From the NCBI RefSeq assembly GCF_014647155.1, contig NZ_BMOQ01000002.1:62001-126000 (forward strand): DNA of 64,000 nt, given 5' to 3'. This stretch comes from Halarchaeum nitratireducens (GTDB lineage Archaea; Halobacteriota; Halobacteria; Halobacteriales; Halobacteriaceae). Of this stretch, positions 10,528-32,556 are shown in pieces. The position numbers were made by a program, and so were the translations under genes. Below the pieces are notes generated by a model that was given only the letters and a program-made list of their open reading frames with translations, did no database searches and was not told where the DNA came from. The stretch's first letter is position 1. The number at the start of each line of letters is the position of its first letter.

Positions 10528-11316
10528 GTGGACCCTCGACACAACGCACTCCGTCGAACGCTCGACGCTGACACCCCCGCGTTCGGCGTCCTCGACAACA
10601 CGTACAGCCCCGCGGCCGTCGAAGTCGTCGGGGAGCTCGGCTTCGACTTCGTCTGGATCGACCTCGAACACGGCGGGCCGAGCCCGTGGGACGCCGACGC
10701 GCTCGAAGACCTCCTGCGCGCGGCCGAGCTGACCGACACCGAACTCCTCGTGCGGATCCCCGAGGCGAACCCGGCGATGATCCGCAAGGCCCTCGACGCG
10801 GGCGTCCGCAACGTCTTCCTCTCGCGCGTCGAGAGCGCCGACGAGGTCCGGATCGCCGTCGAGGCCGCGAACTTCGAGTACGCCGGATCGCCCGGTCGAC
10901 GCGGTCTCGGGGGTCCGCGATCGGCGCGCTACGGGCTCGCGGACGACTACGTCGGAACCGAGGACGCGGAGATCCTCCTCGGCGTGACGATCGAGACCGC
11001 CGAGGCGGTCGAGAACATCGACGAGATCCTCTCCGTCCCCGAACTCGGGTTCGCCTTCCTCGGCCCGAACGACTTCTCCGTCGCCTACGGCGCGCCCGGC
11101 GACCTCGCCGATCCGGAGGTCCAAGCGGCGGTCGAGGCGGTGCACGACGCCGCGCTCGCGCACGACGTGACGCTCGGCGGGCTCACCTTCGGGATGGAGG
11201 ACGCCGTCGAGAAGGTCGAGAGCGGCTATCGGCTCCTCCACGTCGGCAGCACCCTCGGCGCGCTCACGAAGACGTTCGACGGCTGGCACGACCGGTACGA
11301 GGACGCGACGCGGTAG
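10528..11316 (+). CDS. HpcH/HpaI-family aldolase
   Basis: This 262-residue protein belongs to the class II pyruvate aldolase family (2-keto-3-deoxy sugar acid or 4-hydroxy-2-oxo-heptanedioate aldolases). Visible motifs are FVWIDLEHGGPSPWD with the catalytic His, LVRIPEANP with the pyruvate-binding Arg, TIETAEAVEN with the metal-binding Glu, and GPNDFSVAYG with the metal-binding Asp. The Gln that usually precedes the Glu by two residues appears to be Thr. The start is a GTG at 10528; a TTG six bases earlier is possible. It probably cleaves a 2-oxo acid to pyruvate and an aldehyde. No partner genes are adjacent. Confidence 0.85.
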   Translation: MDPRHNALRRTLDADTPAFGVLDNTYSPAAVEVVGELGFDFVWIDLEHGGPSPWDADALEDLLRAAELTDTELLVRIPEANPAMIRKALDAGVRNVFLSRVESADEVRIAVEAANFEYAGSPGRRGLGGPRSARYGLADDYVGTEDAEILLGVTIETAEAVENIDEILSVPELGFAFLGPNDFSVAYGAPGDLADPEVQAAVEAVHDAALAHDVTLGGLTFGMEDAVEKVESGYRLLHVGSTLGALTKTFDGWHDRYEDATR

Positions 11317-11333
11317 CGCGACGCGCTCTCGGT

Positions 11334-12566
11334 TCACCCCGCCGCGCCGTCGTCGGGCACCTGCGTCTGGACGACGAGCGCGGCGAGCGCGGAGAGGGCG
11401 GCGGTGACGACGAACGGGGCGGTGAAGCCGTAAGCCGTGAGGGGACCGGCGACGACGGGACCGATGCCGGCGCCGAGGCCGAACGCCATCGTCAGCACGG
11501 AGAGCGTGGCGGCGTCGTTGCCGCCGGACGCGTAGTCGCCGGCGAGGGCGAGCGCGGGTCCGAACGCCATCGCGGCCCCGACGCCTTGGAGCGCGCGGAG
11601 GACGCCGAGGCCCCACGGGCCGGCGACGAACCCCTGCAGGAGCAGCGCCGGGGCGGCGACGAGGAGGCCGGCGACGACGAAGCGCTTGCGCCCGTAGCGA
11701 TCGGAGAGCCGTCCGGCGATCGGTTGCGTGCAGACGAAGGTGGTGACGAACGCGGCGAACTGCGCGCCGAAGGCCGCGGCGCTCTGATCGAGGCGCGCGT
11801 TGATCGCGGGCTCGATGGCCGCGAAGAAGGCGATGCCGAGCGCGAGGACGAGCGTGGCGACGCCGAGCGCGAACACCGGATCGAGTCCACCGGTGCCGTC
11901 CGTCACGGCGAAGCCGAGGTCCTTCGCCGCCGCGGCGCTCGTGCTCACGGGGTCGCGGACGAGCGCGAGGACGACGACGAGTCCGAGCGCGGCCGCGGCG
12001 GCGGCGACGTCGAAGGAGAGTGCGAACCCGCCGATCGCGTGCCCGAGCAGGTCGTAGGGTCCGCGCGCGACGAGGAGGCCGGCGACGACGGGACCGAGCC
12101 CGAAGCCGACGAGGCGGAGGGCGTTGAAGACGCCGAAGTGCATCCCGCGGGTGTCCGGCGTGCTGTACTCGTTGATGAGCGCGACGCTCGCGGTGACGGT
12201 GCAGCCGACGCCGAGGCCTTGGACGGCGCGGGCGGCGAACAGGCCGAGGTAGCTGTCGGTGGCGAGGAAGGCGAGGTCGGTGACGCAGAGGACGACGAGG
12301 CCCGCGAGGACGAACGCGCGCCGGCGGCCGAGCCGATCGGAGAGCCGCCCGGCGACCGGCTGGATCACGGCGTCGAAGACGCCGAAGGCGGCGAGGACGA
12401 CGCCGGCGAGGACGGCGACGGAGAGGCCGAGCGTTCGGCCGCCGACGCGGTCGCTGGCGACGTAGAGCGGAAGGGCGACGATGAGGAGGGCGTTCCCGAA
12501 CGAGTCGGCGAGGCGGGCGATCCCGAGCGCGACGACGCGACGGTCGGGGCCGCTCACGCGGACCAC
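11334..12566 (-). CDS. MFS transporter (paralogue of 14584-15888)
   Basis: This 410-residue protein has about 12 membrane segments in two halves, and both loop 2-3 signatures of the major facilitator superfamily (RLSDRLGRRRAFVLAG and RLSDRYGRKRFVVAG). It closely resembles the transporter at 14584-15888, for example in LSVLTMAFGLG near the C-terminus. It is likely a proton-driven exporter, perhaps of drugs or metabolites. GTG codons at 12566 and 12557 are both possible starts. No substrate clue is seen. Confidence 0.85.
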   Translation of the reverse strand: MVRVSGPDRRVVALGIARLADSFGNALLIVALPLYVASDRVGGRTLGLSVAVLAGVVLAAFGVFDAVIQPVAGRLSDRLGRRRAFVLAGLVVLCVTDLAFLATDSYLGLFAARAVQGLGVGCTVTASVALINEYSTPDTRGMHFGVFNALRLVGFGLGPVVAGLLVARGPYDLLGHAIGGFALSFDVAAAAAALGLVVVLALVRDPVSTSAAAAKDLGFAVTDGTGGLDPVFALGVATLVLALGIAFFAAIEPAINARLDQSAAAFGAQFAAFVTTFVCTQPIAGRLSDRYGRKRFVVAGLLVAAPALLLQGFVAGPWGLGVLRALQGVGAAMAFGPALALAGDYASGGNDAATLSVLTMAFGLGAGIGPVVAGPLTAYGFTAPFVVTAALSALAALVVQTQVPDDGAAG

Positions 12567-19353: not shown

Positions 19354-20286
19354 ATGAGTTCGGAACACGCAGACAGAGCAGACGCACCGCCACTGACCGA
19401 GACGATCGCGCCGGGGACGGCGACGGACCCCGACGTGAAGAGCGCCGAGGAGGCGACCGTGACGGTCGACGGGCAGGACATCGTCGTCCCGGAGGGCTCG
19501 ACGATCATCGAGGCCATCGAGGCCGCGGAGACGGCGGGCGAGGTCCCCGCGCTCTGCTACTACGATCGGGACAGCCCCGAGGCGGAGAAGATCGGCCCGC
19601 GCAGCGAGTGTCGGACCTGCATGGTCGAGACCGACGAGCACGGGATGGTGCCGTCGTGTAGCTTCCCCGCCGAAGACGGCCTCACGATTTCGACGGACGA
19701 CGAGGCGGCCACGGAGGCCCGCGACGTCAACCTCGACCTCGTCCTCTCCGATCACAACCTCCGCTGTACGACCTGCGGGAAGAACGGCCGCTGCGAACTG
19801 CAGGACGCGGCGATCGACAACGACGTCGAGGAGCCCCGATACGGCGTCTTCGACGACCGGGAGGCGTACGAGCCCCTCGACGATTCGAGCGACTTCATCC
19901 AGATCGACCGCAACAAGTGCATCCTCTGTAACCGCTGCGTGGAGGCCTGTAACGACGTGCAGGTCGAGGGCGTCCTGCGGATGGAGGGCCACGGCGCGGA
20001 CACCCGAATCGGCTTCCAGAACGGCTCGGAGACGATGGAGGACTCGACGTGCGTCTCCTGCGGGCACTGCGTGACGGTCTGCCCGACGGGGAGCCTCGTC
20101 GAGCAGGGGATCACGGACGCGGCGACGATCCCGCTGCCCGGCTTCAGTCAGAAGAACTCGATCGGGAAGTCCCTGGAGAGCACGGGCAAGGAGAAGAAGG
20201 GACCGATGACGCGGATGAAGCGCGACGAACCGAAGGACCTCACGAGCGAGGCGCGAACGGACGAGAACCCCGGTGACTGGCTATGA
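19354..20286 (+). CDS. ferredoxin-like electron-transfer subunit (NuoG/FdhA N-terminal type)
   Basis: This 310-residue protein carries four cluster sites in the order of the NuoG/HymB/FdhA N-terminus. A 2Fe-2S set uses C68, C86, C89 and C102. A His-Cys3 4Fe-4S set uses the His of SDHNLRC with C138, C141 and C147. Two ferredoxin 4Fe-4S sets use C189/C192/C195/C199 and C233/C236/C239/C243. In bacteria these domains are usually fused to the molybdopterin subunit; here they are a separate gene. Its stop overlaps the next start by 4 nt (ATGA). It would carry electrons between the catalytic and NuoF-like subunits. Confidence 0.85.
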   Translation: MSSEHADRADAPPLTETIAPGTATDPDVKSAEEATVTVDGQDIVVPEGSTIIEAIEAAETAGEVPALCYYDRDSPEAEKIGPRSECRTCMVETDEHGMVPSCSFPAEDGLTISTDDEAATEARDVNLDLVLSDHNLRCTTCGKNGRCELQDAAIDNDVEEPRYGVFDDREAYEPLDDSSDFIQIDRNKCILCNRCVEACNDVQVEGVLRMEGHGADTRIGFQNGSETMEDSTCVSCGHCVTVCPTGSLVEQGITDAATIPLPGFSQKNSIGKSLESTGKEKKGPMTRMKRDEPKDLTSEARTDENPGDWL

Positions 20287-22562
20287 GTAGTAACAACGAG
20301 CGAAAGGAGGGCGTCGCTGGATTCATGCAGCGCGCCAAGGAACAGGCGAACAGGAACGTCGAGCACTTCGCGGAGGGGATGGCCGCCGGTTCGATGCCGG
20401 AGGGCAAGCTCTTCGACATCGCCCAGCAGATCAGCGACAAGCGACTGGGCGAACTCACGGTCGACAGCACGACGTGTGGCTACTGCGCCGTCGGCTGTCG
20501 CTTCGACGTCTACACGGACGGCGAGGAGGTGCTGGCGACGCGCGCGGCCGACCCCGAGGAGTCCCCCGTCAACGACATCTCGACGTGCGTGAAGGGGAAG
20601 TTCTCCTACAACTTCGCCAACTCCGATCAGCGCCTCACCGACCCGCTCGTCCGCGACGAGAACGGCGAGTGGCGCGAGGCGACCTGGGAGGAAGCCCTCT
20701 CGCGGACCGTCGAGGGGTTCCGGGACATCATCGACGAGTACGGCAACGAGGCGATGAGCGTCATCGCGTCCTCGAAGGCGACGAACGAGGAGAACTACCT
20801 GATGGGCAAGTTCGCCCGCCAGGTCCTCGGCACGAACACCGTCGACAACTGCAACCGCCTCTGTCACTCCTCGACGGTCGCCGGCCTCGCCAAGACGTAC
20901 GGCTACGGCGCGGCGTCGATCAGCGTGAAGGACTTCGAGGAGGCGGACCTGATCTTCCTCACCGGATCGAACACGACCGAGGCCCACCCCGTGCTCGGCA
21001 CGCGCGTCAAGCAGCACGTCAAGGAGGGCGGCGACCTGATCGTCTTCGACCCGCGCGAGACGCAGATCGCCGAGTACGCCGATCAGTACACCTCGATCCG
21101 CCCGGGCTACGACACCGTCTGGGTCAACGGTCTCACGCGCTACATCATCGAGAACGACCTCTACGACGAGGAGTTCGTCGCGGAGCGCACCGAGGGCTTC
21201 GAGGAGGTCAAGGAGGCCGTCGACGAGTTCACCCTCGACTACGTCGAGGAGGTCACGGGCGCCTCTCCCGAGGAGATCGTCTCCGCCGCGGAGGCCATCG
21301 CCGAGGCCGACCGCACCGTCTTCGGCTGGACGCTCGGCATCACCGAGCACTCGCACGGGACGGACAACGTCGCGTCGCTCGCCAACCTCGCCGCGATCAC
21401 CGGGAACGTCGGGAAGCCCGGCACCGGCGTCTCGCCGTTCCGCGGTCAGAACAACGTGCAGGGCGGCGGTGGCGACATGGGACCCCTGCCGGACAACTTC
21501 CCCGGCTACCAGAAGGTCGCGGACGACGAGATCCGCGCGAAGTTCGAGGAGGCGTGGGACTGCGAGATCCCGGCCGAGCGGGGCTACTACACGACGGAGA
21601 TGTTCAACGCCTTCGACGACGGCGAGCTCCGCGGGATGTTCTGTATCGGCGAGAACCCCTCGCTCTCCGAGCCCGGCAAGAAGCACGCCGACGAAGTGCT
21701 CGAGGAGATGGAGTTCCTCGTCGTGCAGGACCTCTTCATGAACGAGACCGCGAAGTACGCCGACGTCGTCCTGCCCGCCGTCTCCTTCCTCGAAAAGGAG
21801 GGGACGTTCGCCAACACGGACCGCCGCGTCCAGAAGGTCAATCAGGTCCTCGAAAAGAAGGGCAACGCGAAGGCCGACTGGGAGATCCTCCAGGAGCTCG
21901 CAAACCGCATGGGCCGCGAGTGGGACTACGCGGACACCAACGAGATCAACGAGGAGATGCGCTCGCTCACGCCCATCTACGGCGGGATCAGCCACGAGCG
22001 TATCGAGGAGGAGGGCGGCATCCAGTGGCCGTGCTGGGACGAAGACCACCCCGGGACCGAGCGCCTCTACACGGAGGAGTTCAACACGGAGAGCGGCAAG
22101 GCGAACCTCACGCCGGTCGGCTACGCGGAGCCGATGGCGCCGCAGACCGAGGAGCTCCCGCTCACGCTCACCACGGGGCGCGTCCTCTACCAGTACCACA
22201 CGGGAACGATGACGCACCCCGAGGAGGGGATCATGAAGTACAACGACCGGGACTTCGTCGAGATCAACCCCGACACCGCCGCCGCCTACGGTATCGAGAA
22301 CGGCGACCCGGTCCGCATCGAGTCCGACAAGGGCGAGATCGTCGTCACCGCGCAGGTGACCGAGCGCATCGGCGAGGACACCGTCTTCGCCCCGATCCAC
22401 TTCGCGGAGACGGCGGTCAACACGCTCACCGACTCCGAGCGCCTCGACCCCGAGGCGAAGACGCCGGAGTTCAAGGCGACCGCCGTTCGCATCAGCCCCG
22501 TCGAGGGTCAGCAGTCGACGAGCCGACCCGGGAGCGTCGAACCCGCCCGGGGTGACGACTGA
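20283..22562 (+). CDS. fdhA: formate dehydrogenase catalytic subunit, Cys type
   Basis: This 759-residue molybdopterin enzyme oxidises formate to CO2. The N-terminal 4Fe-4S cluster uses C65, C68, C72 and C102 (TTCGYCAVGC). The catalytic pair C194-H195 in NRLCHSSTVAGL takes the place of the Sec-His or Cys-His pair of known formate dehydrogenases. RGQNNVQGGGDMG near 390 and the C-terminal molydopterin-dinucleotide domain (from about 625, LTTGRVLYQYHTG) also fit. The first 60 residues are an extra helical extension. It overlaps the ferredoxin-like gene by 4 nt and the DUF1641 gene by 1 nt, so the operon is tightly packed. Confidence 0.9.
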   Translation: MSSNNERKEGVAGFMQRAKEQANRNVEHFAEGMAAGSMPEGKLFDIAQQISDKRLGELTVDSTTCGYCAVGCRFDVYTDGEEVLATRAADPEESPVNDISTCVKGKFSYNFANSDQRLTDPLVRDENGEWREATWEEALSRTVEGFRDIIDEYGNEAMSVIASSKATNEENYLMGKFARQVLGTNTVDNCNRLCHSSTVAGLAKTYGYGAASISVKDFEEADLIFLTGSNTTEAHPVLGTRVKQHVKEGGDLIVFDPRETQIAEYADQYTSIRPGYDTVWVNGLTRYIIENDLYDEEFVAERTEGFEEVKEAVDEFTLDYVEEVTGASPEEIVSAAEAIAEADRTVFGWTLGITEHSHGTDNVASLANLAAITGNVGKPGTGVSPFRGQNNVQGGGGDMGPLPDNFPGYQKVADDEIRAKFEEAWDCEIPAERGYYTTEMFNAFDDGELRGMFCIGENPSLSEPGKKHADEVLEEMEFLVVQDLFMNETAKYADVVLPAVSFLEKEGTFANTDRRVQKVNQVLEKKGNAKADWEILQELANRMGREWDYADTNEINEEMRSLTPIYGGISHERIEEEGGIQWPCWDEDHPGTERLYTEEFNTESGKANLTPVGYAEPMAPQTEELPLTLTTGRVLYQYHTGTMTHPEEGIMKYNDRDFVEINPDTAAAYGIENGDPVRIESDKGEIVVTAQVTERIGEDTVFAPIHFAETAVNTLTDSERLDPEAKTPEFKATAVRISPVEGQQSTSRPGSVEPARGDD

Positions 22563-23287
22563 TGGCCCAACCGGTCCGCGAGGTTCCGGAGAGCGCGACG
22601 AACACGGAGCCCGAACGACCGCAGGAGGGCCGCGACGCCCTCGAATCGGTCCTCGAGGAGTACGGCGGCGATTACGCGGACGCCGCGGAGTACACGGACG
22701 AACTGGAGAACGTCCTCGAAACCGCGATTCTCGTCATCTCCAGCGCGGACGACGCGGAGGTCGACTACGTCACCGACTCGATGGTGACGCTCGTGAAGGC
22801 GGGCGACGCCATCAGCACCGAGGGGACCGTCGCGCTCGCCGAGTCGTTCGGTGATAACTCCGAGGGATTCGCCGAGGTCGTCGACGACGTGGTGCGCCTC
22901 CAGCAGGAGGGCCACCTCACGATGTTCCTCGAACTCGCGGGGACGCTCGCGGAACCGCTCGACGAGGACGATGCCGAGCGACTCGCTAACACCGTCGGGG
23001 AGAACGCCGAGGAGCTCGCGGACGTCCTCGACGACCTGATGGCACTGAAGCAGACCGGTCAGCTCGACGCGCTCCTCGAACTCGCGGCGACGTTCTCCAC
23101 CCTCGACGCCGACGAGACGACCGCGAACGCCCTCAACGACGTCCTCGGTGCCGTCGGTGAGGCCGAGGAGGAGTCCGAGCCGATGGGTCTCTTCGGCGCG
23201 CTCGGCGCGTTGCGAAGCAGCGAGGCCCGCGCCGGTCTCGGATACGTCGTCGAGATACTGAAGGGTCTCGGCCGCCGTAACACCTAG
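22562..23287 (+). CDS. DUF1641 protein associated with formate dehydrogenase
   Basis: This 241-residue acidic, helix-rich protein ends with GLFGALGALRSSEARAGLGYVVEILKGLG, the conserved end of the DUF1641 family. Such proteins are encoded beside formate dehydrogenase in Bacillus and archaea (YrhD-like). Several short repeated helices (for example LADVLDDLMALKQTGQLDALLELA) suggest a helical bundle. The role is unknown; assembly or membrane docking of the enzyme is an inference. Its ATG overlaps the fdhA stop by 1 nt (TGATG). Confidence 0.8.
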   Translation: MAQPVREVPESATNTEPERPQEGRDALESVLEEYGGDYADAAEYTDELENVLETAILVISSADDAEVDYVTDSMVTLVKAGDAISTEGTVALAESFGDNSEGFAEVVDDVVRLQQEGHLTMFLELAGTLAEPLDEDDAERLANTVGENAEELADVLDDLMALKQTGQLDALLELAATFSTLDADETTANALNDVLGAVGEAEEESEPMGLFGALGALRSSEARAGLGYVVEILKGLGRRNT

Positions 23288-25213
23288 GTGATGCACGAGG
23301 CGGGCACGGACGACGCGAGCGACCGATCGGAGACCGCGGGAACGACCGTCTGCCCGCTCTGTGCGGTCGGCTGTCACCTCACGCCGGCCGACGGGGCGGG
23401 TGCGGGCGGCCGGGCGCGCGGCGTCGCCGGCCCCGCGAACCCGAACGGCCGGCTCTGCGCGAAGGGCGTCAACGCCTTCGAGAGCGTCGACGACCCCGAC
23501 CGACTCACCCGACCGCTCGTTCGTGAGGACGGTGCGCTCGTTCCGACGGACTGGACGACGGCGCTCGATCGCGCGGCCGACGGTCTCGCCGCCGTCGCGG
23601 ACGCGCGCGACCCCGACGCGCTCGCGTTCTTCGGCGCGCCACACTGCTCGAACGAGGAGAACTACCTCTTACAGAAGCTCGCGCGGACGGTCGGATCGAA
23701 CACCGTCGACAACCGTGCCCGCCTCTGTCACGACAACGCCGCCGAGGCGCTCGCCGATCGCTTCGGCTATCCGGCCTCGACGTTCGGCATGGACGAGCTC
23801 GTCGACAGCGACCTCGTCCTCGTCGTCGGCGCGAACCCGGCCGTCCAACAGCCCGTCGCGTTCAACGCGTTCGTTCGCGGCGGCGACGCCGACGTCGTTC
23901 ACGTCGACCCGCGGGCGAACGAGACGACGCGCGCGGCGGACGTCCACCTCGCGCCCCGACCCGGGACGGACGCGCTGTTCTTCCACGCGGTCGCCGCGGA
24001 ACTCATCGAGCGCGACGCCGTCGACGCGTCGTTCGTCGCCGAACGCACGACCGGGTTCGACGGCTACCGGGAGTCCCTCTCGGACGTCGACGCCGTGCGG
24101 GCCGCGGCGGCGACGGACGTCCCCGCGGGCGACGTGCGCGACCTCAGCGAGCGGATCGCCGCCGCCGACGGCGTCGCGGTCATCGCCGGCACGGGCGTCG
24201 AGGCGGACGGCGGCGCGACGGCGCGCGCGCTCTGCGATCTGCTCTGTCTCACGGGCGACGTCGGGCGAACCGGCGCGGGCTTCGCGCTCTTCCGCGGGCT
24301 GAACAACGAGCAGGGCGCGACCGACGTCGGCTGTCGGCCGGACGAACTCCCGGGTCACGCCGACCTCACGGATCCCGCGGCCCGCGAGCGCGTCGCCGAC
24401 GTCTGGGGCGCCGACGTCCCCGAGACCCCGGGACTGAACGAGAAGGAGGCGCTCGCCGCGTTCGGCGAGTCGATCCACGGGGCGCTCGTCGTCGGCGAGA
24501 ACCCCGCGATCTCGAAGCGCGATGCCGATTGGACGGCGGCGCGCCTCGACGCCCTCGACACGCTCGTCGTCGTCGACGTCTACGAGACGGAGACGACCGC
24601 GCACGCGGACGTCGTCCTCCCCGCCGCCGTCGGCGTGGAGAAGACGGGGACGGTCACGAACCTCGATCGCCGCGTGCAGGCGCTCGCCGCCGTAGCCGAC
24701 CCACCGGGCGACGCCCGACCGGACTTCGAGACGCTCTGCGCCCTCGGACGGCGCCTCATGGGCGACGGCTTCGAGTACGACGGCCCGCGCGAGGCCTTCG
24801 CCGAGCTCCGCGCGGTGAGCCCGATCCACGCCGACGTCACCGTCGGCGAGCGGTGGGGCGACGACTACCGCGAGCGCTTCGCCACGCCCGACGGCCGCGC
24901 CGCCTTCGCGCCCGTCGAGACGGACGTCGAGGTCGACGCGGATGGACTGGCGCTCGTCGTCGGCTCCCGCGCCGGCGGCTTCGGGGCGGCCGACGCGACC
25001 GCGGACGAACTGCTCCACCTCAACCCCGCGGACGCCGACGCGCTCGGCCTCGCCGACGGCGACGCCGTCGTCGTCCGCGGCGACGGCGCCAGCGTCGAGA
25101 CGGTACTCACCGTCGAGGACGGCGTCCGCCGCGGCGTCGCCTATCTCCACGCGGACGTCGCCGATCCCCTCGTGCGCGCCGGGACGGCGAGCGTCGAGGT
25201 GGCGGCCGCGTAA
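23288..25213 (+). CDS. second molybdopterin oxidoreductase, formate dehydrogenase-like
   Basis: This 641-residue paralogue of FdhA starts at the codon right after the DUF1641 stop (GTG at 23288; ATG at 23291 is the alternative). The 4Fe-4S ligands are C22, C25, C29 and C57. The catalytic-type pair C147-H148 lies in RARLCHDNAAEAL, and RGLNNEQGATDVG matches the RGQNN region of FdhA. It lacks the long N-terminal extension, and its C-terminal domain is shorter. A role as a second formate dehydrogenase or as an assimilatory-type reductase is possible. A tight operon position suggests shared expression and use of the same electron carriers. Confidence 0.8.
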   Translation: MMHEAGTDDASDRSETAGTTVCPLCAVGCHLTPADGAGAGGRARGVAGPANPNGRLCAKGVNAFESVDDPDRLTRPLVREDGALVPTDWTTALDRAADGLAAVADARDPDALAFFGAPHCSNEENYLLQKLARTVGSNTVDNRARLCHDNAAEALADRFGYPASTFGMDELVDSDLVLVVGANPAVQQPVAFNAFVRGGDADVVHVDPRANETTRAADVHLAPRPGTDALFFHAVAAELIERDAVDASFVAERTTGFDGYRESLSDVDAVRAAAATDVPAGDVRDLSERIAAADGVAVIAGTGVEADGGATARALCDLLCLTGDVGRTGAGFALFRGLNNEQGATDVGCRPDELPGHADLTDPAARERVADVWGADVPETPGLNEKEALAAFGESIHGALVVGENPAISKRDADWTAARLDALDTLVVVDVYETETTAHADVVLPAAVGVEKTGTVTNLDRRVQALAAVADPPGDARPDFETLCALGRRLMGDGFEYDGPREAFAELRAVSPIHADVTVGERWGDDYRERFATPDGRAAFAPVETDVEVDADGLALVVGSRAGGFGAADATADELLHLNPADADALGLADGDAVVVRGDGASVETVLTVEDGVRRGVAYLHADVADPLVRAGTASVEVAAA

Positions 25214-25262: not shown

Positions 25263-25541
25263 ATGTCCCGCCTCGTCGAACGCGACGCGCACGGTCCCGT
25301 GAAACTCGACGCCGACGATGTCGATCCCGAGAAGGGCGATATCGCGGTCTGTCGCTGCGGCCTCTCCGACGAGCATCCCTTCTGTGACGGTTCGCATCGC
25401 GCGACGGCGGACGAGTCGCCCGACGAGACGTACTGCTACGACGCGGACGGTGAGCGCCGCGTCGTCGTCGACGTCGTCTGCGAGGCCGACGCCGACGCCG
25501 AGGAGCGGGACGGGGACGAGGACGCGAACGAGACCGGGTGA
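25263..25541 (+). CDS. CDGSH iron-sulfur domain protein
   Basis: This 92-residue protein has the 2Fe-2S signature CRCGLSDEHPFCDGSH, with likely ligands C30, C32, C41 and H45. This is the mitoNEET-type cluster with three Cys and one His. The rest is acidic. It starts 49 bp after the formate dehydrogenase operon on the same strand, so co-transcription is possible but not shown. Such proteins are small redox or cluster-transfer proteins; its partner is unknown. Confidence 0.88.
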   Translation: MSRLVERDAHGPVKLDADDVDPEKGDIAVCRCGLSDEHPFCDGSHRATADESPDETYCYDADGERRVVVDVVCEADADAEERDGDEDANETG

Positions 25542-25550
25542 CGGCCCCGA

Positions 25551-26225
25551 TCAGACCTGCGGTCCGAGCTCCTCGTAGGGCTGGACGACGACGAAGCCGG
25601 CGTCGCCCTCGAAGACGAGCTGATAGCGCTCGTCGGAGGAGCTCCCGACGAGGTCGCTGAGGCTCCGATTCGACTCGACGCTCGGGGAGAGGTCGCGGCT
25701 CCACGCGACGGTGGCGTCGGGGTCGGTGCGGACGGGCGGCGTGAGGACGAGCGGATCGCCGTGCGTGGTGATGGCGACCGTCCCCGGCCCGGAGAGGAAG
25801 ACGTTCGTCAACCCGGCGGCGGAGGCCCCGCCGAGGCTCCCGGTGACGCCGATCTCGTAGTCGACGCGGTCCTCGAAGGCGAGCACGTCCATCCCGTTCA
25901 CGGAGATGGCCTCGTCGGCGTCGAGTTCGAGCAGTTGGATCTCCTTGCCCTGATCGGCGACGTAGAGGTGGCCCTGTCCCGAGACCTCCATGACGGGCGT
26001 CCCCTCGCTCGTCGCCTTCTCCTTCAGGAAGCCCGTGACACCGCCCTCGGCGGAGGACTTTCCCGTGAAGGAGAGATCGCCGTCGAAGGCGACCATCGCA
26101 CCCGCCTTCGTGATCACGGTGCCGTCGACCGCGATATCGAGGAGCTTCCCGTTCTCCAGTTCGAACTGTTCGCCGCTCTCGTCCGGTTCGTTCGCGGTGA
26201 CGAACTCGTCGAGTTCCATGGACAT
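25551..26225 (-). CDS. AIM24 family protein
   Basis: This 224-residue protein belongs to the AIM24 (DUF124) beta-rich family. Typical features are KLLDIAVDGTVITKAGAMVAFDGDLSF near 26-52 and GPGTVAITTHGDPLVL near 148-163. The function is unknown; family members occur in most haloarchaea, and the mitochondrial namesake supports cristae structure. Two ATG codons (26225 and 26219) are possible starts. It converges on the CDGSH gene with a 9-bp gap. Confidence 0.85.
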   Translation of the reverse strand: MSMELDEFVTANEPDESGEQFELENGKLLDIAVDGTVITKAGAMVAFDGDLSFTGKSSAEGGVTGFLKEKATSEGTPVMEVSGQGHLYVADQGKEIQLLELDADEAISVNGMDVLAFEDRVDYEIGVTGSLGGASAAGLTNVFLSGPGTVAITTHGDPLVLTPPVRTDPDATVAWSRDLSPSVESNRSLSDLVGSSSDERYQLVFEGDAGFVVVQPYEELGPQV

Positions 26226-26375: not shown

Positions 26376-27995
26376 CTAGGGGTCCTGCTCGGCGTCCGTG
26401 ACCGTCCCGTCGGCCGCGTCGGCGGCCCGCGCGTCCGGGTCGCGCTTCGCGGGGTCGCCGTGACCGCCGCCGCCCGGCGTCCGGATCGAGACAGTCGTCC
26501 CCGCCGCGACGTCGCGCACGGTCTTCGCGGGCACCGACTCGCCGTCGATACGGTTCTCGCCGGTCGCGCCGTCCGCGCCGCCGGCGAGACCGCGCGGGGC
26601 GCGCCGCCGACGTTCGGTGAGGAGCGAGACGGTGGCGTCCGTCTCGACGGTGACGGTGCGGACGACGCCGAGTCCGCCGCGGTGTTCGCCGTCACCGCCG
26701 CTGTCGGGACGGAGCGCGTACTCCTCGACCCGGAGCGGGTACTCGTTTTCGAGGGCTTCGACGGGCGTGTTGAGCGTGTTCGTCATCCCGACCTGCACGC
26801 CGTCGAGGCCGTCGCCGGTCGGGCGCGCGCCGGCCCCGCCGCCGATGGTCTCGTAGTACGCGAAGCCGTCGCCGGTCCGATCGCCGATCGTGAGGTTGTT
26901 CATCGTTCCCTGCCCCCCCGCGGGGACGCGCTCGGGAACGGCGTCGGCGAGCGCGGCGAAGACGACGTCCGTGACGCGCTGGCTCGTCTCGACGTTGCCG
27001 CCGACGACGGCCGCGGGCGGGTCGGGATCGAGGACGGACCCCGAGGGGACCTCGACCGAGATCGGGTCGTAACACCCCTGATTGGGCGGGATCTCGGGAT
27101 CTGTGAGGCAGCGGAAGACGAAGTAGACGGCGGAGGTGGCGACCGCGAGCGGCGCGTTGACGTTCCCGTCGACCTGGTCCGCCGTGCCCGCGAAGTCGAC
27201 CGTGACCGCGTCGCCGTCGATCGTGACGGCCACTGCGATGGGGATCTCGTCGTCGGTGAGGCCGTCGCCTTCGAGCGCGTCCCGGGCGTGATACGTGCCG
27301 TCGGGGAGGTCGCGGAGTTCGGCGCGCACGCGGTCGCGCGAGTAGCCGATGACGGCGTCGAAGGCGGCGCGGATCTCGTCGCGGCCGTGGTCGGCGACGA
27401 GCTCGGCCAATCGCTCCTCGGCGCGGTCGTTCGCGGCGATCTGCGCACGGAAGTCCGCGCGGCGCTCGCCGGGGTTGCGCACGTTGGCGAGGAGCAGGTC
27501 CATCACGTCCTCGACGACCTCCCCGCCCTCGACGAGGCGGGTCGGCGGGAGGCGCAGGCCCTCCTGGAAGATCTCGCGCGCGCCGGCGGGCATGCTCCCG
27601 GGCGTCATCCCGCCGACGTCGGCGTGGTGGGCGCGGGAGACCGCGTATCCCATGACTTCGCCGCCGATCCCGATCGGGGAGACCATCGTGACGTCCGGGA
27701 GGTGGGTGCCGCCCTCGAAGGGGTCGTTGAGGACGTAGACGTCTCCGGGCGCGGGGTCGTAGTCGCGGACGGCCTCGACGGCCCGCGGCATCGCGCCGAG
27801 GTGGACGGGGATGTGCTCGGCCTGCGCGACGAGCCGCCCGTCGGCGTCGAAGAGCGCCGTCGAACAGTCCTCGCGCTCCTTGATGTTCGGCGAGTACGCG
27901 CCGCGGATGAGCACCTGCCCCATCTCCTCGGCGAGGCTCTCGAACTGATTGCGGACGACTTCGAGGGTGACGGGGTCCAGGTCGCGCTCGCTCAT
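26376..27995 (-). CDS. hyuB: hydantoinase B / 5-oxoprolinase B-type subunit
   Basis: This 539-residue protein matches the HyuB family: [20 protein letters not shown] at the start, the [19 protein letters not shown] region, [15 protein letters not shown], and [13 protein letters not shown] near the end. With HyuA it forms an ATP-dependent enzyme that opens a five-membered lactam or hydantoin ring (N-methylhydantoin, 5-oxoproline or related). Its ATG overlaps the hyuA stop by 4 nt. The true substrate cannot be read from sequence; an acetone- or acetophenone-carboxylase-like role is possible. Confidence 0.87.
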
Positions 27996-30004
27996 TCGCG
28001 CTCACCCCGTTCGAGGACGACGGTGCCGTCCGACGTCACGCGCCCCGTCCAGCCCGGCGGAACGACGACGGTGCTCTCGCGGCCGTCGAGGACCGCGGGC
28101 CCGCCGAACTCGGCCGCGGGGGTGAGCGCCGCGCGGTCGTACACCGTTGTCTCCCGGTAGTCGCCGTCGAAGAACGCCTCGCGAGTGCCGGTGACCGGAT
28201 CGCCAGCGCCGGCGTACGCGACGTCGAGCGGGTCGCCTTCGACGGTCGCGCTCGCGCGGAGCGTGACGACCTCGACGGGGTCGTCGAGCCGGTAACCGTG
28301 TGCGTCCTCGTGGGCCGCGTGGAATCGCTCGGCGACGGCCGCGGGGTCGAAGTCGGGCGCTGGAACGGTCTGCTCGAAGCTCTGCCCGGCGTAGCGGCAG
28401 TCGACGGCGCGCGTCACGGTCGCGGCCTCGGGGTCGGCGACGTCCGCGCGGACCTCCTCGACGAGGTCGTCGTACGCGGCTTCGACGGTCGCGGGATCGG
28501 CGTCGTCGAGCGCGACCTGGTGGGTGCGCGCGGCGTCGTGCTTCTCGTCGGCGGCGAGCAACCCGTACGCGGAGAGGACACCGCAGGCGCGCGGGACGAC
28601 GACCGTGTCGACGTCGAGGTCGGCGGCGAGCGCGCCGGCGTGCATCGGGCCGGCCCCGCCGAAGGCGACGAGCGCGAAGTTCCGGGGGTCGTGGCCGCGC
28701 TCGACGGTGACGCGGCGAATCGCGCGCGTCATGTTCGCGTTGGCGACGCGGTAGACGCCGCGGGCGGCCGCCCGCGGGCCGTCGAGGTCGGCGTCGTCTG
28801 CGAGGCGGGCGAGCGCGTCGCGTGCGGCGTCGACGTCGAGTTCGAGGTCGCCGCCGAGCGACGCGTCCGGGCCGATGTACCCGAGCACGACGTTCGCGTC
28901 CGTGACGGTGGGTTCGGTGCCCCCCTTGCCGTAGCAGGCGGGACCGGGTTCGGCACCGGCGGATTTCGGGCCGACGCGCAGCGCGCCGCCCTCGTCCACC
29001 CACGCGACGGACCCGCCGCCGGCACCGACGGTCGTCACGTCGACCATCGGGACGCCGATCGGGTGGCCGGCGATCTCGGCGTCCGTGGTGCGTTCGGCCT
29101 CGCCGTCGCGCACGAGCGAGACGTCGCTCGACGTCCCGCCCATGTCGAAGGTGACGAGTCCCGCGGTCTCCGTCACGTCCGTCGCGGTGTCGCTCGCACC
29201 GACGACGCCCGCGGCCGGCCCGGAGAGCGCCGTCGTGACAGCGTGATCGCGGACCGTCTCCGCGGCCGCGATACCGCCGTTCGACTGCATCACGCGCGGC
29301 GTCGGCACGCCGCGCTCCGCGACCTCGTCTTCGAGTCGACCGAGATAGGCGTCGATGGCGGGCGTGACGTAGGCGTCGACGGCCGTCGTCGAGGTGCGTT
29401 CGTACTCGCGGAACTCCGCGAGCACCTCGTGCGAGGCCGAGACGGGGACGTCGAGTTCCTCGCGGAGGATCGACGCGACGGTCCGCTCGTTCTCCGGATG
29501 CCGATAGGCGTGAAGGAGGGAGACAGCGACGCTCTCAGCGTCGCAGTCACGGATCCCGTCCGCGAGCGCGCGCACCTCCGATTCGTCGACGGGCGTCTCG
29601 ATGCCGTCGACGGTGACCCGTTCGTCGACCTCGAAGCGGCGGCGGCGCGGGACGAGTGGGTCGGGCTTCGACGCGTCGAGGTCGTAGAGGCTCGGTCGAT
29701 CCTGTCGGCGGAGTTCGAGGACGTCGCGGAAGCCCGCGGTCGTGACGAGTGCGCTCCGCGCGCCGTCGCCTTCGAGGAGCGCGTTCGTCGAGACGGTCAT
29801 CGCGTGCGCGAACGCCTCGACGTCAGCGGGGTCGACGCCGGCGCGCTCGCAGACTTCCTCGATCCCGCGAACGACGCCGACGCTCTGGTCGGCCGTGCTC
29901 GGGACCTTCGCCGTCACGAGGTCGCCGTCGGCGGTGTGGAGGACGACGTCCGTGAAGGTGCCGCCGACGTCGACGCCGACGCGCGTCGCGGGCGTCTCGA
30001 CCAT
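27992..30004 (-). CDS. hyuA: hydantoinase A / 5-oxoprolinase A-type subunit
   Basis: This 670-residue ATP-binding subunit starts with RVGVDVGGTFTDVVL, the phosphate-binding loop of the ASKHA-like HyuA family. FDMGGTSSDVSLV near 280 and AGGGSVAWVDEGGALRVGP near 318 follow, then VAFGGAGPMHAGALA near 440. It pairs with HyuB, which follows with a 4-nt overlap. It starts directly after the stop of the NRAMP-like transporter, so all three genes form one operon. Confidence 0.88.
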   Translation of the reverse strand: MVETPATRVGVDVGGTFTDVVLHTADGDLVTAKVPSTADQSVGVVRGIEEVCERAGVDPADVEAFAHAMTVSTNALLEGDGARSALVTTAGFRDVLELRRQDRPSLYDLDASKPDPLVPRRRRFEVDERVTVDGIETPVDESEVRALADGIRDCDAESVAVSLLHAYRHPENERTVASILREELDVPVSASHEVLAEFREYERTSTTAVDAYVTPAIDAYLGRLEDEVAERGVPTPRVMQSNGGIAAAETVRDHAVTTALSGPAAGVVGASDTATDVTETAGLVTFDMGGTSSDVSLVRDGEAERTTDAEIAGHPIGVPMVDVTTVGAGGGSVAWVDEGGALRVGPKSAGAEPGPACYGKGGTEPTVTDANVVLGYIGPDASLGGDLELDVDAARDALARLADDADLDGPRAAARGVYRVANANMTRAIRRVTVERGHDPRNFALVAFGGAGPMHAGALAADLDVDTVVVPRACGVLSAYGLLAADEKHDAARTHQVALDDADPATVEAAYDDLVEEVRADVADPEAATVTRAVDCRYAGQSFEQTVPAPDFDPAAVAERFHAAHEDAHGYRLDDPVEVVTLRASATVEGDPLDVAYAGAGDPVTGTREAFFDGDYRETTVYDRAALTPAAEFGGPAVLDGRESTVVVPPGWTGRVTSDGTVVLERGERE

Positions 30005-31213
30005 CTACAGCACCCCCGCGACGGAGAGGAGCGTTCGGACGCCGAGCCAGACGACGACGAGCGTGACGAGTCCGCCGACGACGTTTCCGGCCGTGCTGTT
30101 CGTGTAGTCGCCGAGGATGTCTCGATCGTTCACCGCGTAGATGAGGAAGAGAGCGACGATGGGCAGGAGGATACCGTTGACGACCTGTGCGAAGACGATG
30201 ACCTGCACGGGGCTCCCGCCGACGAGCGAGGCGACGATGCCGACGGCGATGATGGTGCCCCAGACGGCGCGAAAGCGCGGCGAGTCGATATCGGTCTCCC
30301 AGCCGAGCGCGCCCGCGGTGGCGTACGCGCCGGCGAGCGGTGCGGTGGTCGCGCTCGTGAACCCGGCGGCGAAGAGACCGACGCTGAAGAGGTATTTCGC
30401 CCACGGGCCGGCGAGCGGTTCGAGCTGCTGGGCCATCACGCCGACGTCCGAGATCGCGGTCCCGCGGGGGAACGCCGCGGCCGCGGTGACGAGGATCGCC
30501 ATCGTGATCAGGCCGCCGACGACGATGGAGAGGACGGTGTCCGCCCGGCAGTCCGGGAGGTCGCTCGGCCCGCTCCAGCGCTCTTGGACGTTGCTCGCGT
30601 GCAAGAAGAGGTTGTAGCCGACGACGGTCGTTCCGATGAGGCCCGTGGCGAGGACGAGCGAGTCCCCGGGAACGCGCGGGGCGAACCCCGCGACGAGCGC
30701 GCCGACGTCCGGCCCGATGAGGATGGCGTCGACGACGAACGCGACGGCCATCAGGGCGACGAGGCCGACGAGGACGCGCTCGATGAGTTCGTACCGACCC
30801 GTGAAGAGCAGCGCGCCGGCGACGAGCCCCATCACGGGGCCCCAGACGGTCGCGGGGATCCCGCTGAGGGTGGCGAGGCCGGCGGCGCCGCCCAATATGT
30901 TTCCAGCCTCGTAGGCCGCGGTGCCGATACCGATGGCGCTGACGACGAGCGCGACGCTGACGTAGGAGGGAACGGGGTTGTCGAACTGCCCGCGGAGGGC
31001 CTCGCCGAGCCCTTCGCGCGAGACGAGGCCGAGGCGCGCGCTCATCTCCTGAAGTACGATCGTCGCCGCGATCGAGAACGCGATGGTCCAGAGGAGCGCG
31101 TACCCGAAGCGCGCGCCCGTGACGCTCGCCGTCGTCACCGTCCCGGGACCGATGAACGCGGCGGCGACCATCGCTCCCGGTCCGACGGACCGTAGTCGTT
31201 CGATACCGTTCAT
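30005..31213 (-). CDS. NRAMP-fold transporter lacking the metal-site motifs
   Basis: This 402-residue protein has about 11 membrane segments and the NRAMP fold. In metal carriers the first helix has DPGN and the sixth has MPH. Here the first helix reads IGPGTVTTAS and the sixth reads VGYNLFLHASNVQ. The Asp, the Asn and the Met of the metal site are thus missing. An NRAMP-like gene is also found beside 5-oxoprolinase genes in Bacillus (ycsG). The operon with hyuA and hyuB suggests an organic substrate such as a lactam. The start at 31213 is preferred to an upstream in-frame ATG at 31234. Confidence 0.8.
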   Translation of the reverse strand: MNGIERLRSVGPGAMVAAAFIGPGTVTTASVTGARFGYALLWTIAFSIAATIVLQEMSARLGLVSREGLGEALRGQFDNPVPSYVSVALVVSAIGIGTAAYEAGNILGGAAGLATLSGIPATVWGPVMGLVAGALLFTGRYELIERVLVGLVALMAVAFVVDAILIGPDVGALVAGFAPRVPGDSLVLATGLIGTTVVGYNLFLHASNVQERWSGPSDLPDCRADTVLSIVVGGLITMAILVTAAAAFPRGTAISDVGVMAQQLEPLAGPWAKYLFSVGLFAAGFTSATTAPLAGAYATAGALGWETDIDSPRFRAVWGTIIAVGIVASLVGGSPVQVIVFAQVVNGILLPIVALFLIYAVNDRDILGDYTNSTAGNVVGGLVTLVVVWLGVRTLLSVAGVL

Positions 31214-31348
31214 GCGTGAGACATCACACCACACGAACGACCAGCGATGGGTATAGACCTTTGTAAGAACGGAGAATACGCCGACACCGGAGGCGCGCGT
31301 GCGTTCACGCGACGTATGACGCTGTATGAACGCGTGTGATCGATCGCG

Positions 31349-31903
31349 TCAGTCCTCGGCGTCGACGGCCGTGACGATCGCCTTCGAGACGCCCTCCTCG
31401 ACGTTGACGTCGAACGGGAGGTCGCGGACGCTGTGCGTGAGAAAGCGGAGCATGAACCACTTGATCGACGCCGTCGGGAAGACGACGTGGTAGGTCGGGC
31501 CGTCGGAGTCGCGGACGGTGAGGAAGCCACAGAAGTCGAGCCAGTGGAGGAGGTCGCCGAGCGTCGTGAACCGCTCGCCGTACTCGCGGGCGTGATACGC
31601 CGCGACCCGATCGATCGCGTCGAGGAACGCCGGGTCGGGGTCGCCGGACTCGCCCTCCACGTAGTCGAGGAAGCAGTGGAGGAAGTCGACGTCGAGCAGG
31701 ACGTGTTCGCCGGTCGAGAGCATCCGATGGTAGGCGTCGAGGCGGGCGTCGGCCGCCCCGTCGACCGCGTCGAAGTTCGCCGCGTAGAACGTCAGCGCTC
31801 GGCGGACGATCTCGCTCTGCGAGGTCTCCGCGCGGTCCGTGAGGTCCCCGAGCGCGTCGGCGGACTCCTCGTCGAGCGACACCGTGAGGCGATTCGAGGG
31901 CAC
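31349..31903 (-). CDS. ribbon-helix-helix regulator with C-terminal sensor-like domain
   Basis: This 184-residue protein begins like a CopG/Arc-type DNA-binding domain: RLTVSLDEESADALGDLTDRAETSQSEIVRRALTFY (residues 5-40). A longer helical domain follows, without a motif I recognise; it contains Cys and His residues (LHCFLDYV, LHWLDFCGF) that could bind metal. It starts with GTG at 31903 and is divergent from the winged-helix regulator at 32035, with 131 bp between them. A transcriptional regulator is likely; the target is unknown. Confidence 0.65.
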   Translation of the reverse strand: MPSNRLTVSLDEESADALGDLTDRAETSQSEIVRRALTFYAANFDAVDGAADARLDAYHRMLSTGEHVLLDVDFLHCFLDYVEGESGDPDPAFLDAIDRVAAYHAREYGERFTTLGDLLHWLDFCGFLTVRDSDGPTYHVVFPTASIKWFMLRFLTHSVRDLPFDVNVEEGVSKAIVTAVDAED

Positions 31904-31986
31904 GGTGTATCGTGGCGTGACGCGGAGTTAGCGCTTTTCACTCGTCGCCGCCCCCGGGTGCGAGACGCTAGCGATCGATAGGGGGT

Positions 31987-32012
31987 GTATCCAAACGTAT
32001 ATGCCCGGATAC
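31987..32012. promoter_or_regulatory. inverted repeat around the TATA box of the winged-helix gene
   Basis: A 6-bp inverted repeat (gtatcc at 31987-31992 and ggatac at 32007-32012) flanks the TATA-like acgtatatg. The position suggests autorepression by the product of the gene at 32035; this is an inference. Confidence 0.35.
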
Positions 32013-32034: not shown

Positions 32035-32556
32035 ATGGATTTGACTGACTCGCAGCAGGCGATTCTCACCGCGCTCATCGACGGCTATCAGTCTACTGAG
32101 TCCCCGATGACGGGGGAGGAGATCGCGGAGGCGGTCGATCGCCACCCCGGGACGATACGCAACCAGATGCAGACGCTGAAGGCCCTCGACCTCGTCGAGG
32201 GGATTCCCGGCCCGCGCGGGGGGTACAAGCCGACGACGAACGCCTACGAGGCGCTCGACCAGCAGGACCTCGACGAGGCCGACGCCGAGGCGCTCACGGT
32301 CGCGAGCGACTACGACCGCATCGCGGTCACCGTCGAGCGAATCGACTTCCTCGAAGTGAACCACCCCGACGAGTGCGCGGCCGAAATCGAGTTCACCGAG
32401 GCCGTCGACGTCGAGGTCGGCGATCCGATCGTCATCGGGCCCACGCCGAACACGGCCCTCGTCGTCGCCGGGCAGGTCACGGCCGTCGAGGACGACGGGC
32501 GGACGGTCCGGATCGACGTCACCAAACTCGAAGCACCGCTCGTCGCCGAACCGTAA
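32035..32556 (+). CDS. winged-helix regulator with C-terminal beta domain
   Basis: This 173-residue protein has an N-terminal winged helix (SPMTGEEIAEAVDRHPGTIRNQMQTLKALDLVEG, residues about 22-55) like NrpR-type or Rrf2-like regulators. The C-terminal part (about 100-173) is rich in beta strands and may bind a ligand; I do not recognise it. It precedes the photolyase gene by 41 bp on the same strand and may be co-transcribed with it. A TATA-like element lies at about 31995-32003. Confidence 0.65.
   Translation: MDLTDSQQAILTALIDGYQSTESPMTGEEIAEAVDRHPGTIRNQMQTLKALDLVEGIPGPRGGYKPTTNAYEALDQQDLDEADAEALTVASDYDRIAVTVERIDFLEVNHPDECAAEIEFTEAVDVEVGDPIVIGPTPNTALVVAGQVTAVEDDGRTVRIDVTKLEAPLVAEP

Follow-up and report, generated by a model that had tools for sequence, protein, structure and literature searches.

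Four minus-strand genes, in the order RHH, NRL, hyuA and hyuB, make up the unit studied here, which lies within the window (the whole 64,000-nucleotide stretch of Halarchaeum nitratireducens DNA that was analyzed). The first encodes a 184-residue RHH (CopG-type) regulator (31349–31903; Pfam RHH_1) with a conserved C-terminal region of ~140 residues, the fold of which is unknown. NRL (30005–31213, with its ATG at 31213) is an NRAMP-like transporter of the LeuT-fold family PF01566 that lacks the metal-site residues and for which we propose a role as a 5-oxoproline importer. The remaining two genes encode the ATP-binding (ASKHA) subunit of an ATP-dependent lactamase (hyuA, 27992–30004; Pfam Hydantoinase_A and Hydant_A_N) and its metal-dependent hydrolase subunit (hyuB, 26376–27995; Pfam Hydantoinase_B). 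The NRL stop codon adjoins the hyuA start and there is a 4-nt overlap between hyuA and hyuB, as the original prediction, made from the window alone, had described; its NRL-hyuA-hyuB operon is correct, but it missed the RHH gene upstream, which is part of the unit. The unit is flanked by an AIM24-family gene on the same strand, next after hyuB (25551–26225), and by a divergent winged-helix gene (32035–32556). Elsewhere in the window, two tandem molybdopterin oxidoreductase-like (formate-dehydrogenase-like) genes (20283–25213) are followed by a gene for a CDGSH iron-sulfur protein (25305–25541).

Between the RHH gene and NRL lies a candidate operator, a tandem TTCATAC-type repeat with a 10-bp period (31314–31331, minus strand). 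In 37 of 57 haloarchaeal loci this intergenic region contains a pair of near-matches to TTCATAC at a spacing of exactly 10 bp, compared with 0 matches at period 10 in shuffled sequences. Across the other periods tried (8–22), matches were found at period 20 (7/57), which corresponds to two units of the same 10-bp repeat, and at period 18 (2/57), with none at the rest. The tandem repeats could be the site bound by tandem RHH dimers.

HyuA and HyuB have the features of HyuAB/OplAB lactamases. The HyuA phosphate (DVGGTFTD, DMGGTSSD) and adenosine (GAEPGP) motifs are intact, and the D-H-D-H metal site of HyuB (D43/H98/D101/H123) aligns to D41/H99/D102/H124 of CapB. The nearest solved structures to HyuA are the N-methylhydantoinase 7hk5 and 6yra, deposited as a 5-oxoprolinase, which we take to be the caprolactamase CapAB of P. 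jessenii. Both share with HyuAB the two-subunit ATP-dependent architecture, the ATP motifs and the metal quartet, although in 7hk5 the last position of the quartet is a glutamine. Unlike CapB, HyuB has no vicinal cysteine pair (C410-C411 of CapB correspond to V402-G403), and the HyuA of the unit occupies a separate branch of the HyuA tree.

Family position and metal site of NRL

NRL is a full-length member of PF01566 (339 bits) and scores 110.7 bits against the NCBIfam equivalog NF037982, "Nramp family divalent metal transporter" (cut-off 50), so that automatic annotation would name it a metal transporter. An AlphaFold2 model built from 24 sequences (mean pLDDT 88.8) gave DraNramp and EleNRMT as best Foldseek matches (TM 0.85–0.87). 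NRL thus has the LeuT fold and the Pfam family of Slc11/NRAMP proteins, but it has neither DPGN nor MPH and lies outside the Slc11 clade, which forms its own group (100/100) in two trees. In TM1, DPGN is replaced by GPGTVTTAS (residues 22–30; 31124–31150, minus strand), and in TM6, A-TV-MPH by TTVVGYNLFLH (residues 195–205, of which VGYNLFLH is 198–205; 30599–30631, minus strand). A ligand-by-ligand alignment from DraNramp to NRL gives D56 to G22, N59 to T25, E134 to N105, A227 to T195, M230 to V198 and H232 to Y200; the sole retained DraNramp position is Q378 (Q343 in NRL). This agrees with the original prediction that the metal residues of helices 1 and 6 are replaced, and extends it to all side-chain ligands. 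G22, T25, T195, V198 and Y200 are invariant in 64 of 64 tabulated clade members, drawn from haloarchaeal, actinobacterial, Bacillota, gammaproteobacterial and Corynebacterium-type sequences, which marks a fixed state rather than decay. Elsewhere in the genome, on a different contig, there is a single canonical DPGN/MPH NRAMP.

The NRMT magnesium transporters were considered and rejected as a family for NRL. EleNRMT (7qia) resembles NRL in fold (TM 0.87), in Pfam family and in lacking the Slc11 metal residues; in contrast to NRL, however, NRMTs keep the aspartate within a D-x-G-G motif in TM1, have A-P-W in TM6, and form a separate clade (100/100). Two further haloarchaeal PF01566 paralogues (L081 5953–7215 and L082 5956–7257) have GSGS in TM1 and form a long branch without evident relatives; that in L081 lies amid metabolic genes of unknown role. 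A counterpart to NRL is the "orphan" outgroup of Slc11/Nramp in PF01566, for which substitutions to Y and N in helix 3, to V and Y in helix 6, and A228T have been described (PMC10606218). Compared by these named residues rather than the original sequences, NRL agrees at each (Y101, N105, V198, Y200 and T195), and hence most likely belongs to this outgroup. The accounts of the outgroup consulted (Cellier 2022, 2023) use it solely to root the tree, and name neither a function, nor the operon link, nor a substrate.

The original prediction also drew an analogy with ycsG, which lies near 5-oxoprolinase genes in Bacillus, and once PxpABC-linked relatives of NRL had surfaced we first assumed that NRL is a YcsG/PxpT orthologue. 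The YcsG/PxpT type was represented by three carriers from loci with PxpA (two shown directly beside it), in L. brevis (L284 5073–6275), Fusobacterium (L281 5774–6967) and Acinetobacter (L280 3701–4957, presumably MumT), and by a Foldseek comparison with the deposited YcsG model 9a52, together standing in for the exact PxpT and YcsG sequences. The three carriers are 44–47% identical among themselves and 24–27% identical to NRL, which is 23% identical to 9a52; they have GPGFLTQTA in TM1 and GGTVGGY in TM6, and form their own branch (100/100) apart from NRL. The YcsG/PxpT/MumT type is a further PF01566 subfamily without the metal ligands. Two PF01566 subfamilies therefore occupy the same kind of operon: this part of the analogy holds, and orthology is rejected. 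The structural model and subfamily comparison, both suggested with the original prediction, combine a DraNramp/EleNRMT-like fold with a position that, judged from motifs and trees, is neither that of an Slc11 metal carrier, nor of an NRMT, nor of a YcsG/PxpT/MumT orthologue.

Loss of the ligands bears on whether NRL is a divalent metal importer (of Mn, Zn or Mg) supplying HyuB or PxpA, in which case its link to their substrate would be indirect. Fold, family and the conserved metal quartet of HyuB are compatible with such a role, and the presumed MumT (L280) also lacks DPGN and MPH, implying that missing ligands do not by themselves exclude metal. Reports on YcsG-type carriers conflict: MumT deletion lowers (PMC5050338) and YcsG overexpression raises (PMC10448178) cellular Mn, whereas PxpT, a published 5-oxoproline carrier 50% identical to YcsG, is required for growth of C. 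glutamicum on 5-oxoproline (PMC13274462). The YcsG study also saw effects on 5-oxoproline use, for which its authors did not rule out a polar effect (PMC10448178); the C. glutamicum deletion, however, was complemented by pxpT alone (PMC13274462). Metal import by NRL is further opposed by the invariant replacement of every side-chain ligand, with G and Y in place of D and H, by the canonical NRAMP already present in the host, and by the association of the gene, described below, with 5-oxoproline enzymes of differing type rather than with metal enzymes generally. We consider it distinctly unlikely; that it is weakened and no more reflects the reported Mn effects of MumT and YcsG, which likewise lack the ligands.

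Conservation of the unit in haloarchaea

Across 196 genomes of the order the NRL clade is sharply delimited (52–100% identity, against ~35% or less for paralogues). In 55 of the 57 haloarchaeal genomes examined NRL is followed by hyuA, a pairing far beyond chance, and hyuB comes next after hyuA in every locus with enough flanking sequence; in 51 of the 57 loci an RHH gene precedes NRL on the same strand at a distance of at most 1.2 kb. The two exceptions without linked hyuAB are L056 and L058, the latter retaining the RHH gene. Among the plasmid records that carry the unit are those of Haloferax mediterranei and Haloarcula marismortui. The Halarchaeum sp. CBA1220 locus aligns with the window in its flanks and in hyuAB and has neither the RHH gene nor NRL (L270 6741–6957 versus window 29985–31989), which is consistent with these two genes forming an optional uptake module and with an enzyme able to work alone. 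This arrangement also bears on the reading that NRL is an exporter, a sensor, or a carrier of some product, for example glutamate. Transport direction is not readable from sequence; the optional uptake module suggested by CBA1220 and the behavior of PxpT-type neighbors, which act genetically as uptake systems, nevertheless make this reading very improbable.

A gene of the Asp/Glu-racemase/Amdase superfamily with two invariant cysteines follows hyuB (in L056, NRL) in 31 of 45 haloarchaeal loci, often overlapping hyuB by 4–8 nt (for example L033 10879–11652; loci L033–L072); it is absent from the window and from the Haloarcula and Haloferax loci examined. Its product could act on D-forms of the substrate or product, or could signal hydantoins. 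PxpABC is also encoded separately in the host genome, and mutual exclusion of PxpABC and NRL-hyuAB in haloarchaea was rejected, as NRL and PxpA co-occur (21/31, odds ratio 7.3, uncorrected for relatedness). A second island in the same genome (L084, L085) holds another hyuAB, PxpA, PxpB, PxpC and a biotin-carboxylase-like gene, together with dihydropyrimidinase-like and N-carbamoyl-amino-acid-hydrolase-like genes; a racemase-like ORF there (L084 6605–7426) continues into arginine-rich sequence, as though a frameshift had occurred.

Bacterial relatives and the enzymes beside them

A two-motif scan of 84,980 species returned 366 relatives, of which the best 80 were kept; phyla of unnamed bacterial loci were taken from named center genomes. 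Among these best 80 of 366, the best bacterial matches are gammaproteobacterial, with neither enzyme nearby. Other members have one or the other: NRL lies beside PxpA and PxpC (and PxpB) in Maledivibacter and Streptomyces, beside PxpA in a Clostridia MAG, and beside hyuA in a Rubrobacter MAG. Wider draws yielded nine Bacillota loci (46–63% identity to NRL) with PxpABC within 8 kb, and PxpABC accompanies NRL in 11 of 11 Clostridia-type Bacillota loci examined at 46–63% identity (on the short contig L160 only PxpA is visible). Several actinomycetotal NRLs (42–45%) are near PxpA, and seven further Actinomycetota loci (56–60%) have the order NRL-hyuA-hyuB, one contig ending after hyuA. In one PxpABC locus, NRL and pxpB are separated by an IS200/IS605-type TnpB-like ORF (L208 9525–10826), and the YcsI gene is seemingly truncated (10937–11380). 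The census of NRAMP-like genes beside hyuA, hyuB or pxpABC that had been suggested as a check thus bears out the association, bacterial members lying mostly with PxpABC or hyuAB. No recurring neighbor pointing to a substrate was found beside gammaproteobacterial NRLs in eleven loci, and gammaproteobacterial and Corynebacterium members have neither PxpABC nor HyuAB in the flanks examined. A search of Mycobacteriaceae and 242 genomes taken as Corynebacterium for C. glutamicum PxpT itself found NRL relatives (46–48%) with no adjoining pxpA.

Six of the seven actinobacterial NRL-hyuAB loci contain a gene of PF07286 (D-glutamate cyclase, YcsI family), which in most cases is on the same strand as NRL and immediately upstream of it. 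The family also occurs in nearly every NRL-PxpABC locus and in PxpABC loci of the YcsG type; it is absent from the haloarchaeal NRL operons. A mouse protein with a D-glutamate-cyclase domain converts D-glutamate to 5-oxo-D-proline, the stand-alone bacterial family being outside that study (PMC5339696). Since the marker is common to NRL-hyuAB and NRL-PxpABC loci, HyuAB and PxpABC are likely to do the same job in them. That two unrelated ATP-dependent hydrolases accompany a single carrier clade and a single marker gene would most simply mean one substrate, 5-oxoproline.

The trees of the two partners disagree. Haloarchaeal NRL groups with PxpABC-linked Bacillota NRLs (85/96 in a first tree, 96/96 in a second), and a single clade of all HyuAB-linked NRLs was rejected (AU p 0.0012), whereas haloarchaeal HyuA groups with five of six actinobacterial HyuAs (97/96, with few outgroups and long branches). 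From this disagreement, the NRL and HyuAB pairing was probably assembled more than once, or its partners were exchanged.

The HyuA tree also bears on whether NRL imports another cyclic amide (hydantoin, N-methylhydantoin, another lactam or D-enantiomers) that HyuAB would open to a product other than glutamate. Substrates of HyuAB enzymes include hydantoins, lactams and caprolactam, an N-methylhydantoinase is the closest solved structure, and the two-cysteine racemase-superfamily gene (which includes Asp/Glu/hydantoin racemases) follows hyuB in many haloarchaea; moreover, NRL in L056, which has no hyuAB, has such a gene as its neighbor and an M20-family hydrolase gene nearby. However, the N-methylhydantoinase pairs with the other hyuA copy of the host genome and not with that of the operon (98/84), the window operon contains no carbamoylase and no further catabolic gene, and the bacterial contexts of the clade point to 5-oxoproline. 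We regard another cyclic amide as unlikely. The original prediction, that a lactam, hydantoin or related compound is imported and opened with ATP by HyuAB, is strengthened in its organic-substrate core and narrowed to 5-oxoproline by the PxpABC operons and D-glutamate-cyclase neighbors; hydantoin becomes the less likely option, given the lack of a carbamoylase and the position of HyuA outside the N-methylhydantoinase branch.

A proposed 5-oxoproline operon and its implications

We therefore favor, as the probable explanation, a 5-oxoproline (pyroglutamate) scavenging operon. NRL would import 5-oxoproline or a very close lactam acid, HyuA would phosphorylate the lactam with ATP, and HyuB would hydrolyze the phosphorylated lactam at its metal site; the glutamate produced would enter central metabolism directly, so that no further catabolic gene would be needed, and the RHH protein would repress or induce NRL-hyuAB via the tandem 10-bp repeats. 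We infer the substrate from genomic context, and likewise infer transport direction, energy coupling, HyuAB activity and binding of the repeats by the RHH protein. Taken together, the PxpABC and NRL-hyuA-hyuB loci of the bacterial clade members, the shared PF07286 marker, the grouping of haloarchaeal NRL with PxpABC-linked Bacillota NRLs, the invariant ligand loss, the conserved RHH-NRL-hyuAB arrangement with its candidate operator, and the PxpT genetics support 5-oxoproline as the putative substrate. Against it stand the lack of a D-glutamate-cyclase gene in haloarchaeal operons, the racemase-superfamily gene, which also fits hydantoin, the PxpABC set of the host, the clade members with neither enzyme, and the Mn effects of YcsG and MumT.

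The arrangement resembles pxpTABC of C. glutamicum and pxpA-ycsG-ycsI-pxpBC of B. subtilis, in which a PF01566 carrier and an ATP-dependent ring-opening enzyme likewise share one operon, and bacterial NRL relatives share the pxpTABC-type operon including the YcsI gene. In contrast to the unit described here, pxpTABC has a carrier of the separate YcsG-type subfamily, and PxpABC instead of HyuAB. The carrier of A. baumannii mumTLUHC (YcsG-type; L280, presumed MumT) also lies in an operon, with LamB/YcsF and allophanate-hydrolase-type genes, but that system is interpreted as serving Mn import and urea use. Our results thus bear on a current disagreement about what PF01566 proteins in such operons move, 5-oxoproline or manganese: a second, distinct subfamily without the metal ligands in the same operons argues for an organic substrate.

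Under this proposal a HyuAB pair of model haloarchaea would gain a concrete substrate, and the name "Nramp family divalent metal transporter" is probably wrong for these proteins in haloarchaea and many bacteria. More broadly, we see as evenly balanced the case that the orphan branch consists of organic-acid (5-oxoproline) carriers, so that an organic substrate was the cargo of close relatives of the metal carriers and perhaps of their ancestor, and that archaea and some actinobacteria built a distinct 5-oxoproline operon from NRL and HyuAB, neither part being orthologous to pxpTABC. If true, this would assign a function to the branch known as "orphan" in Nramp studies, where it roots the metal-carrier tree, and the origin of metal transport, from an organic carrier first or a metal carrier first, would become testable.
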